From NCBI GenBank assembly GCA_021780115.1, contig JAJXZI010000047.1, positions 1 through 55,542 on the forward strand: 55,542 nt of DNA, written 5' to 3'. Positions 14,212-34,709 of this stretch are shown one piece after another. A program made the translations under genes and the position numbers. The number at the start of each line of letters is the position of its first letter. Position 1 is the stretch's first letter. The notes under the pieces are model-generated. The model had not been told where the DNA came from. It was given only the letters and a program-made list of their open reading frames with translations, and did no database searches. This stretch comes from a bacterium. GTDB lineage: Bacteria; Verrucomicrobiota; Verrucomicrobiia; Limisphaerales; JAJXZI01.

Positions 14212-15822
14212 TCAGCGGCGCGGCGTGCGCTTCAGCACGACTCCTTCAGCCCGGCCCTCCAGTTGGTCGCTCACGGCGGCGGCGCGGGCGTTGAAGAAAT
14301 GCTTGAGCGAGAACCCGACCGGGCCGGGGCCGGGAGGTTTCCCGTCGCGCGGGCCGTCGGGCCGGCGCCCGGCCACAACGCGTTCGAACTTCGCCAGCCG
14401 GTCGGCGGATTCCTCGGCGACGAACGGCCGGACCGTGGCCGCCAGCGCGTCGGTCCGCGCACTCAGGCGCTCAGGCAGGAACAAGGTCTTCCGCAGCCGC
14501 CCCAACTCCCGGCGGTAACGCTCGTGGACGGCCGGGACCGCGAGCATCCGCTCTAGGAAACGGTTCTCGCCCACCCAGGGATGCCAGAGGCTCGCCTGCT
14601 CGCGCTGCGCTATGGTGCCGATGTGCGGAAACTCGCCCCAGCAATGGTCCAGGTCCCACGGAATGAATCCGAACCGGTCGGTGCGCGGATCGAGATAGAG
14701 CAGGAAGTTCTGGCCGTTGCTCAGGATGCTGTCGTAGTTGGACAACAAGGCCTCACCCGCGAGGAAGCGGGCGAACTCGGCGACGTCGATGAACTCGTCG
14801 ATCCGCGCCGCGAAGTCGGCGTCGCTGGCCAGCGTGACGAGCCGCGCCAGTTCGATGACGCGGCGTTGGTGTCGCGCCTTCACTTTGGTCTTCGGAGCAT
14901 AGATGGGTTCGTAGGCGGCCCAGGCGTCGCCGAGATCTTTGAACAACTCGTAGGTGACCGGCTTGAACAGGGCCACGCCCTCCGCGCCGAACTCTTCCCG
15001 CGCCCATTCCGCGTCCGGATTCTCCACCACCACGTAGAGACCCAGCAGGCGTCCCGTGAACCGGCCGTCAATGGTCAACCGCATCCGGGCGAAGGCGGTG
15101 CGCGGCGCCGGCACGCCGGCCTCCCGGAAGAACTCGTAGGCCAGGGTGTCGCTCAGGCACGAGGCGTCGGCGACGAGGTTGTGGAAATTCAGCGTCGTCC
15201 GTCCGGCGAGTTGCTGGGACTTGACGCGTTTGTTCAGGTTGATTTTGAACGGCCGTTTGTGGGTGCGCAACGCTTCAATGAAGGTGCCGTTGCCCTTGAA
15301 CCGCGCGCCGACGTCCCGGAAGTCCGCGCCGCCGAACTCCAGTTCCCCCGCCGACCAGGGCTGGTCGATGCCCAGCACGCCGGCGAGGCCGGGGCGCGCG
15401 GCCTTCGGGTTGCGCAGGATCACCGAGCCGTCCGAGCGCATGAACCCCAGAACCGGCGGCACGGAGTTCGGTCCGAGCGCGGCCCATTGCGCGGCGCTGA
15501 ACTTCAGGTGAACGTCCCACACGTTCGTCGGACGAAACAGCTCGTCGGCAAAGCGCAGCGCGGCCGCGTTGGTGGCCAGCGTCGCCGCGGCCGCGGCCGG
15601 CAACGACGGTTCGGGGGGCGTGTCCAGCGGTTGGCGGGCCTGGTGGGTGAGCATCGTGATCCAAACCCACGACTGCACCTGCGGAACCTGCCACAAGAGG
15701 ACGCCGCCGATCACTGACAGCAGCAACTGACGCAGCACCAGGAAACCGAGGCCGACGACCGCCAGCAGCCGCCACCTCCAAGGCATCCTTGGGGCCCGGG
15801 CGGGAACTTCGCGCATGTCCAT
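14212..15822 (-). CDS. Membrane-anchored CotH-kinase family protein
   Basis: About 536 residues from the ATG at 15822; the track's extra N-terminus is Arg-rich and unlikely. One membrane segment near the start (LLAVVGLGFLVLRQLLLSVIGG) places the rest outside the membrane. The CotH-type atypical kinase fold is indicated by FKGNGTFIEALRTHKRPFKI, LNFHNLVADASCLSDTLAYE, LLGLYVVVENPD and FGFIPWDLDHCWGEF; the last supplies the metal-binding Asp pair. Bacillus CotH phosphorylates spore coat proteins. In Verrucomicrobia and Planctomycetes such proteins are numerous and their targets are unknown. The C-terminal ~70 residues are basic. Confidence 0.8.
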   Translation of the reverse strand: MDMREVPARAPRMPWRWRLLAVVGLGFLVLRQLLLSVIGGVLLWQVPQVQSWVWITMLTHQARQPLDTPPEPSLPAAAAATLATNAAALRFADELFRPTNVWDVHLKFSAAQWAALGPNSVPPVLGFMRSDGSVILRNPKAARPGLAGVLGIDQPWSAGELEFGGADFRDVGARFKGNGTFIEALRTHKRPFKINLNKRVKSQQLAGRTTLNFHNLVADASCLSDTLAYEFFREAGVPAPRTAFARMRLTIDGRFTGRLLGLYVVVENPDAEWAREEFGAEGVALFKPVTYELFKDLGDAWAAYEPIYAPKTKVKARHQRRVIELARLVTLASDADFAARIDEFIDVAEFARFLAGEALLSNYDSILSNGQNFLLYLDPRTDRFGFIPWDLDHCWGEFPHIGTIAQREQASLWHPWVGENRFLERMLAVPAVHERYRRELGRLRKTLFLPERLSARTDALAATVRPFVAEESADRLAKFERVVAGRRPDGPRDGKPPGPGPVGFSLKHFFNARAAAVSDQLEGRAEGVVLKRTPRR

Positions 15823-15955
15823 GGTGTAACCCCGCCCGGAAGTCCAAGACAAGGGACATCTGCTCCGCCACCGCGCGCGCCTCCGAATCCGGCCTTCGCG
15901 CGTCAAGAAAGACGGGCCGCAGGCGTTACCCGATTTGCCGCCAACCCGGCATGGG

Positions 15956-19071: not shown

Positions 19072-20244
19072 TTACAGACTGCCGTAAAATTCCTCCACCA
19101 CCTGGCGGAAGTTGTTTTCCGGCACGTTGATGATGCCCATTTCGCGCCGGGCGTTCTCCTCCGAATCGCTGGCGTGCGCGGCGTTGACCATGATGCTCTG
19201 GCCAAACTCGCGCCGGATCGAACCGGGCGGCGCCTTGGACGGATCGGTCGGCCCGAGCACGTCGCGGATTTTCCGCACGGCCTCCACGCCTTCATAGACC
19301 AGCGCGATGCATTTCTGGGTGCCGGAGGCCTCGAGCTCGCCGGGCGGGCATTCCGACGGGGCACGCCCGGCCATGAAGCGGACGATGTTGTCGAACTGGT
19401 GGTCGCCGAAAATGGGGCCGAGGAGATCGCCCAATTGCTGTTCCGCCGCGGGCGGAATGGGGAAGCCCAGTTCCTTTTCGATGCCGGTCTTGGCCTTGGC
19501 GGCCACGACGTCCTTCAACTTGGTGCGCAGCGTTTCGCGCACCGGGCCGTAGAACTCCTGCGCCTGGGCCGTGCTCATGCGGTGGACCTTGATGCCCACA
19601 ATGAACAGGCCGGTGCGCGAGAAGAAGTCGATCATGTTGCCTGGCCGGCCGGTCGGAAAGCGGAAGTTGTCCGGTTTGATGAGCACCAGCGTGCGCTGGG
19701 GCCACTCGCCGGGCTGGTAGGTGATCACGTTTTCCAGCAGCCCGCCGTCCGTGTCCGAATACTTGGCCCAGAGCCGCAGTTTGTCGGCGGCCTCCTCCGG
19801 ATTGGGCGCCGCCAGCACCGCCGGTTCGAAGTAGCGCACCTGGCCCTCGCTGTCGAGAACGAGGTCGCCGTAGGTGTCCCGGATGCTCTCGCCGCCGCGG
19901 CGCTCGGAACTGAAGCTGCCGACGACCGACCGCGTCTTGCGGACCGCGTCGTCGCCCCGGAACAGCAGCAGCATCACCCGGCGGCGGCGCCCGGTTTTCG
20001 CGTCCGGCAACAGGTTTTGCAGGATGTATTGGCGGATCAACTCCTGGATCTTGCGGTCCTGCGGGTCGTTGGTCGAGATGATGCGTTCGGCGTATTGCGT
20101 CACCAACTCCGCGCTCGGCGCGTACATCCGGGCCGCCGCCAAGTCCAGTCCGGTGCGGGTGATGAGCCGGCTCAGAATGCCGCCGGTGCGGGACTTGTAG
20201 AGCGAGTACGGCGTGAGGATGACGTAAGCGAGTTGCTCAGACAT
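19072..20244 (-). CDS. ndk: Tandem nucleoside diphosphate kinase: degenerate N-terminal copy plus active-looking C-terminal copy
   Basis: A 390-residue protein with two NDK folds; ordinary NDK is about 140 residues. The C-terminal copy (from about residue 185) keeps RTLVLIKPDNF with the nucleotide-binding Lys, EFYGPVR with the Tyr, PPGSIRREFG, and NAAHASDSEENARREMG with the phospho-acceptor His. It also carries an extra ~45-residue insert (GIEKELGFPIPPAAEQQL). The N-terminal copy (AYVILTPYSLYKSRTGGILS ... SIRDTYGD ... EPAVLAAPNPEEA) has the same layout but lacks both the Lys and the catalytic His, so it is a pseudo-NDK. The enzyme would balance NTP/dNTP pools in the cytoplasm. It lies between a zinc-ribbon gene 9 bases upstream and alaS downstream. 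Confidence 0.85.
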   Translation of the reverse strand: MSEQLAYVILTPYSLYKSRTGGILSRLITRTGLDLAAARMYAPSAELVTQYAERIISTNDPQDRKIQELIRQYILQNLLPDAKTGRRRRVMLLLFRGDDAVRKTRSVVGSFSSERRGGESIRDTYGDLVLDSEGQVRYFEPAVLAAPNPEEAADKLRLWAKYSDTDGGLLENVITYQPGEWPQRTLVLIKPDNFRFPTGRPGNMIDFFSRTGLFIVGIKVHRMSTAQAQEFYGPVRETLRTKLKDVVAAKAKTGIEKELGFPIPPAAEQQLGDLLGPIFGDHQFDNIVRFMAGRAPSECPPGELEASGTQKCIALVYEGVEAVRKIRDVLGPTDPSKAPPGSIRREFGQSIMVNAAHASDSEENARREMGIINVPENNFRQVVEEFYGSL

Positions 20245-20253
20245 AGCGGGACA

Positions 20254-20451
20254 TCAACCGGGCGGTTGGGCGGGTGGGGTTGGGGTGGAGGCGGGCGGCA
20301 CGGTGGCCTTGCCGCCAAGGATCTTGAACATCACGGTGCCGCATGTCGGGCATTTGCCTTTAATGGCTTTGCGCCCGTTCTTCATGACTTCTTCGACGGC
20401 ATCCGCGATTTCCTTCTTGGCCTTGCATTTGACGCAGTAACCTTCAGCCAT
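20254..20451 (-). CDS. Small zinc-ribbon protein (DUF5679-like)
   Basis: A 65-residue protein with two CxxC knuckles (YCVKCKAKKEI and KCPTCGTVMFKILG) that should bind one zinc ion, followed by a Pro/Thr-rich tail. The first two-thirds match the DUF5679 pattern: GYCVKC...K.EI.........NGR.AIKG.CP.CGT. The start is supported by a good ribosome binding site, AAGGAG, seven bases before the ATG on the minus strand. The function of the family is unknown. Its tight linkage to ndk suggests co-transcription. Confidence 0.85.
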   Translation of the reverse strand: MAEGYCVKCKAKKEIADAVEEVMKNGRKAIKGKCPTCGTVMFKILGGKATVPPASTPTPPAQPPG

Positions 20452-34241: not shown

Positions 34242-34709
34242 GGGGAATAACTAGCAGCTTGAAGATGACTTTCCCAAAGGAAAAAGGCCGTGCCCCAGCC
34301 CCCGAAATCACGAGGCTTGGTTTAGAAGTCCCAGGGCAAAAAAAGACCCCACCGATGCCGTGTGTAACTGTTCCTTTGAACATTAAGCAACAAAAGGAAC
34401 CGGCCCGGAAGCTTCCGACGTCCAGTGAAGGCCTGTCGTCCACTCCCCGCAGCTAAGGCTCCCGCTTTTCTCATTTACCGTTCAAGGACTTAGTTGCTGA
34501 TCACGCGCATGGCAGGGTAAATCGTGCGTCCTGCTTTTCCAAAGAACCGTCGCGGGGCGTTGCTTCCCTCGCAACTTGCTGGTTTCCTATTGCCACAATG
34601 CGGCGGGGTTCTCAAGTGATTTTTCGGAAATTCTTTCGGGCCCTCCCGCCGGCGGGCGCGCAGCCAAATAATCTCGCCTGCCACCAACCGCCCCATCATC
34701 TTCCACCCG
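34242..34709. other. Less GC-rich divergent spacer between rarA and recF, candidate RNA-coding region
   Basis: About 470 bases, visibly richer in A and T than neighbouring genes. It carries several hairpins: GTTCCTTT/AAAGGAAC with a 15-base loop (34370-34400), the 12-base palindrome CGGAAGCTTCCG (34406-34417) and a terminator-like stem at 34281-34300. Both genes leave from this region, so it holds two promoters. The short ORFs on each strand have no coding character that I can defend. See the finding on a possible 6S-type RNA. Confidence 0.5.
34281..34300 (-). terminator. Terminator-like hairpin with T5 tail, upstream of rarA
   Basis: On the minus strand GGCTG, loop GGGCA, CGGCC is followed directly by TTTTT. 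It ends about 40 bases before the rarA start, so it would stop a transcript that begins inside the spacer: a small RNA, or an attenuated rarA leader. The stem is short (5 pairs, one G-T). Confidence 0.4.

Follow-up and report, generated by a model that had tools for sequence, protein, structure and literature searches.

A tandem NDK in Verrucomicrobiota joins a degenerate domain to a putatively active one

In this study, we show that a single open reading frame on the minus strand (20244-19072) of a 55,542-nucleotide stretch of DNA from a bacterium of the Verrucomicrobiota (the whole stretch is referred to here as the window) encodes a 390-residue protein with two NDK domains, and that this double NDK is real, old and widespread in its phylum rather than a local oddity. 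The explanation that we favor, and hold to be fairly probable, is that the protein serves as the housekeeping NDK and forms a pseudo-dimer within one chain, with the dead N-terminal copy as a scaffold. The original prediction, made from the nucleotide sequence, dealt with one gene; beyond it, the double NDK emerges as a clade-wide family that is usually the sole NDK of its genome. The features discussed below are as follows.

19072..20244, minus strand: double NDK gene, 390 aa, single open frame with ATG at 20244 and stop at 19072-19074; start conserved
19705..20244, minus strand: N-terminal pseudo-NDK domain, residues 1-180 (Pfam NDK, 29.2 bits; profile-profile comparison; fold search)
19075..19704, minus strand: C-terminal NDK domain, predicted to be catalytic, residues 181-390 (Pfam NDK, 95.6 bits; catalytic residues invariant in 61 homologues)
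19162..19185, minus strand: active-site motif NAAHASDS, residues 354-361, with putative phospho-His 357 (N354, H357, S359 and D360 invariant)
19675..19677, minus strand: catalytic Lys190, equivalent to K12 of human NDPK (61/61 homologues)
19810..19830, minus strand: dead active-site motif FEPAVLA, residues 139-145, with Pro141 for Asn115 and Leu144 for His118 (E140, P141 and A142 unchanged throughout the 61 aligned homologues)
20179..20196, minus strand: KSRTGG motif, residues 17-22, matching NDK dimer-interface positions (alignment of 61 homologues)
19402..19527, minus strand: helical-hairpin insert of the active copy, about 42 residues (approximately 240-281; DSSP helices 244-259 and 265-292)
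19318..19365, minus strand: second insert, about 16 residues (approximately 294-309), before strand 4 (alignment with single-domain NDKs)
20254..20451, minus strand: DUF5679 zinc-ribbon-like small protein (PF18930, 57 bits)

The claim that the chain holds two NDK folds is borne out by the Pfam scores of both halves, as residues 1-180 alone match NDK (PF00334) at 29.2 bits and residues 182-390 at 95.6 bits, each against a cut-off of 27. When the 390-residue protein was searched against Pfam, the only match besides NDK was a sub-threshold DUF6187, and the curated bacterial NDK equivalog models (NCBIfam PRK00668 and others) do not call the protein, which scores 105.6 against a cut-off of 155. Because the single-sequence score of the N-domain is weak, this domain was tested further by profiles and by structure. 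A profile of 61 N-domains matched 33 single-domain NDKs with 98.3% probability (E=2e-14), compared with 0.3% for the reversed-profile control, and an HMM built from single-domain NDKs matched all 61 N-domains at E<=1e-3. Moreover, the AlphaFold model of the N-domain alone (pLDDT 90, pTM 0.86) found NDKs in all of the best 50 rows of a comparison with the PDB, and the whole-chain model likewise matches PDB NDKs, in keeping with the ferredoxin-like fold of NDK.

The same 61 aligned, diverse homologues are the basis of the residue counts for both domains. The C-domain keeps K12, Y52, R88, T94, R105, N115, H118, S120, D121 and E129 in 61/61 sequences (K190, Y232, R327, T333, R344, N354, H357, S359, D360 and E368 of the 390-residue protein), and with them the complete catalytic set (K12, Y52, R105, N115, H118, S120 and E129), which the N-domain does not have. 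The original observation that the second copy retains the Lys, Tyr and phospho-His and that the first lacks both Lys and His therefore extends to every homologue, since the active-site Lys, Asn and His are gone from all 61 N-domains. There, the K12 position is occupied by T, N or S, the N115 position by P in 61/61, the H118 position mostly by L and otherwise by M, F, I or Y, the S120 position mostly by A, G or P, and the E129 position mostly by K, T or A. At the Tyr52 position Ala predominates, but the residue just before it is a conserved Tyr, so that the alignment may be shifted by one residue here; R88 is found in just 34/61 and T94 in few or none. The sole member of the catalytic set (K12-E129) kept in 61/61 N-domains is R105 (R122). 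In view of these losses across the 61 homologues, the N-terminal copy of every member is not expected to form phosphohistidine.

It is documented that the NDK subunit, prokaryotic ones included, folds over about 140 residues and must dimerize for activity, and that the active NDKs described are all assembled from head-to-tail dimers joined by strand beta2 (review PMC7554756). The full-length AlphaFold model (pLDDT 92.4, pTM 0.90) is a compact two-domain unit that is confident nearly throughout, and over its full length it comes closest in the PDB to NME7/FAP67 of ciliary doublets, at TMq 0.48-0.57 over about 380 columns, compared with TMq of about 0.30 for single-domain NDKs; this gap points to a joint superposition of both domains on the NDK pair of NME7. 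The likeness to NME7 bears on the dimer geometry only indirectly, and the contact between the two domains may be the canonical beta2-beta2 dimer interface. When the published M. tuberculosis NDK interface positions were mapped onto the alignment of homologues, the dimer-interface positions of the N-domain had an entropy of 0.83 against a mean of 1.50, a conservation reached by 0.2% of random sets, whereas the trimer positions were of average conservation (entropy 1.43). The KSRTGG motif, of which K17 and G21 are present in 61, S18 in 59, R19 in 60, T20 in 59 and G22 in 56 of the 61 homologues, falls on the mapped dimer-interface positions, and these conserved positions of the N-domain may form the interface with the active copy.

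In the mechanism that we propose, the C-terminal domain would carry out the usual ping-pong phosphohistidine transfer with His357 as the carrier and with Lys190, Tyr232, Arg327 and Arg344 placed at the nucleotide, while the dead copy, fused in cis, would replace the second subunit of the obligate head-to-tail dimer. One chain would then be a pseudo-dimer with one active site, and it may assemble further into a higher oligomer. The original prediction that the first copy had become either a scaffold or a regulatory domain is best supported in its scaffolding part, by the compact predicted unit resembling that of NME7 and by the conserved dimer-interface patch. Some observations count against this explanation: the dimer-interface positions of the C-domain show no excess of conservation over the rest of that domain, a minority of carriers within the order of the window have a second NDK match, and the genome from which the window derives is just 85.7% complete.

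With regard to the distribution of the double NDK, a scan of GTDB genomes, which used patterns from the window's own protein and so detects close relatives only, returned 40 relatives with identities of 62-80%, almost all of them labelled Verrucomicrobia. In genome groups counted by hand, a full-length double NDK was present in 82 of 194 genomes sampled across the phylum, from 34 families, while 62 genomes had the canonical NDK only and about 45-50 were without any match. Within the order of the window (146 genomes), 99 carry the double NDK and another shows a fragment of it at the end of a contig; in 43 the canonical form occurs alone, and three have neither. No canonical ndk was found in 81 of the 82 carriers of the phylum sample, the exception being G078, which has both; within the order, a second NDK match occurs in 18 of the 99 carriers, and at least 10 of these look canonical. 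A search of the window's own genome for the separate, ordinary ndk that the original prediction suggested looking for found no other PF00334 gene in the 85.7% of the genome represented; this genome does have an adenylate kinase. With no second ndk found in 81 of the 82 carriers or in the window's own genome, the double form most likely supplies their NDK activity. As a separate observation, about 45 of the 194 genomes of the phylum sample (families f22 and f31 and parts of f15 and f20) yielded no NDK at a completeness of at least 90%, some of them with genomes of 5-6 Mb, and in these genomes the NDK is either absent or beyond detection.

In a tree of the domains, the N-domains lie on one side of a branch and the C-domains on the other (support of 100 for N and 89 for C by a quick method), with similar branching inside each group, as would be expected if a single fusion had been inherited vertically. 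Purifying selection acts strongly on both halves: dN/dS of close pairs is 0.01-0.14 in the N-domain and 0.01-0.13 in the C-domain, distant pairs having been set aside as unreliable on account of old divergence and strong GC bias. By these values, selection maintains the dead half as it does the active one. A viral or plasmid origin was considered and rejected, as viral contigs, phages and plasmids contained single-domain NDKs only and no full-length relative.

The active copy carries additional segments that were partly foreseen. The unusual insert of about 45 residues in the original prediction is real, measuring about 42 residues after the Tyr232 helix compared with single-domain NDKs and forming a helical hairpin in the model, and it is accompanied by the insert of about 16 residues before strand 4. 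It is less unusual than supposed, however, as the single-domain archaeal NDK of Pyrobaculum aerophilum (1xqi, 195 aa) carries an insert in the matching position, after the Tyr52 helix and ahead of strand 4, although that insert is about 34 residues long by alignment spacing and has little sequence similarity. Moreover, the hairpin is largely missing from two loci of family f6 (L084 and L085), which retain the double form. The insert was therefore rejected as a unique feature, and is a variable extra that is not key to the fusion.

Among the alternatives, a less likely one than the pseudo-dimer, which we nevertheless take seriously, is that the dead copy acts as a sensor with a regulatory role, in which a nucleotide or another metabolite bound in the altered pocket would tune the active copy allosterically. 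The former active site has not drifted: R122, T124, E140, P141 and A142 are invariant in the 61 homologues, with E140-P141-A142 replacing the NxxH region. A domain that served purely as a scaffold would perhaps not require so much conservation, which suggests a bound ligand or a plug and is the chief argument for the sensor. On the other hand, K12, N115 and H118 are lost in all and R88 and T94 are eroded, so that the classical triphosphate grip of the N-domain is gone, and it is the dimer-interface positions of this domain, not the set of catalytic positions, that are significantly conserved. The nucleotide-sensing part of the original prediction is neither borne out nor contradicted.

It seems doubtful that the chief task of the dead copy is to dock the enzyme onto a different protein, in the manner of domain B of NME7 and the gamma-tubulin complex. 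This reading draws on the precedent of NME7, the nearest architectural analogue, whose domain A is active and whose inactive domain B is required for binding (review PMC13256974), and on the conserved gene neighbors of the double NDK. In its own order, 9 bp separate the end of the upstream DUF5679 gene from the double NDK, and the two genes are neighbors in 38 of the 40 related loci and probably co-transcribed; the genes downstream are not conserved there, unlike the upstream DUF5679. Outside the order, 34 of 44 loci have an aminotransferase as the next gene downstream, in the same orientation and usually some 30 bp from the double NDK, whereas none of 11 canonical ndk loci has an aminotransferase behind ndk. 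These aminotransferases are either aspartate aminotransferase-like (NF041091/PRK06107-like) or PRK09257-type aromatic amino acid transaminases (for example L094:5274-6437, L096:5305-6558 and L084:2657-3841, within loci L055-L100), and the two types share 20% identity over a short stretch (E=0.01). That one operon slot is filled by either of two unrelated enzymes whose predicted activities are similar suggests co-regulation of metabolism, and neighbors that differ between clades, with aminotransferases of two unrelated subfamilies, argue for such co-regulation and against physical docking. Elsewhere in the window, a 6S RNA lies on the minus strand at 34342-34521 (62.8 bits; gathering score 46.4), and a CotH kinase family protein is encoded at 14212-15906 (161 bits), downstream of alaS.

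A bolder proposal, and to us an improbable one, is that the NTP pool of this lineage is run by an obligately asymmetric NDK whose dead domain is an allosteric sensor coupling its output to another pathway, with aspartate metabolism as an example given the transaminase gene beside the double NDK in many families. Finally, a recent or local fusion, a decaying duplicate or an assembly artefact with a functionless first half might explain the missing catalytic residues, but it is refuted for practical purposes by the occurrence of the same fusion in 34 families, the conservation of its motifs and a dN/dS well under 1.

Returning to the pseudo-dimer, we regard the double NDK as a new bacterial variant within a known enzyme family, with a plausible mechanism; a literature search that covered few of the subscription journals turned up no account of a tandem NDK in bacteria. 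In textbooks, NDK is a homo-oligomer, and a lineage in which a dead subunit has been fixed in cis, in what is usually the sole NDK, is a natural experiment on why the enzyme needs a partner and whether the partner must be catalytic. Compared with single-domain bacterial NDKs (PF00334; M. xanthus 2nck, H. pylori 6ay1), the C-domain is alike in fold, in its complete active site and probably in its reaction; those enzymes, however, are about 140 aa long and form homo-dimers that assemble into tetramers or hexamers, whereas the double NDK has a dead NDK domain in front and two inserts in its active copy. The eukaryotic, ciliary Group II protein NME7/FAP67 shares the tandem of one active and one dead NDK domain, but it has an N-terminal DM10 domain, places the active domain first and resides in microtubule doublets. 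Since no DM10 was found by Pfam in the double NDK and its dead domain comes first, in reversed order, the protein is analogous to NME7 in architecture and not a member of that group. By this analogy, each chain of the double NDK probably brings along the partner that its structure needs, as in NME7, and the dead-plus-active tandem of the eukaryotic protein has a bacterial counterpart.
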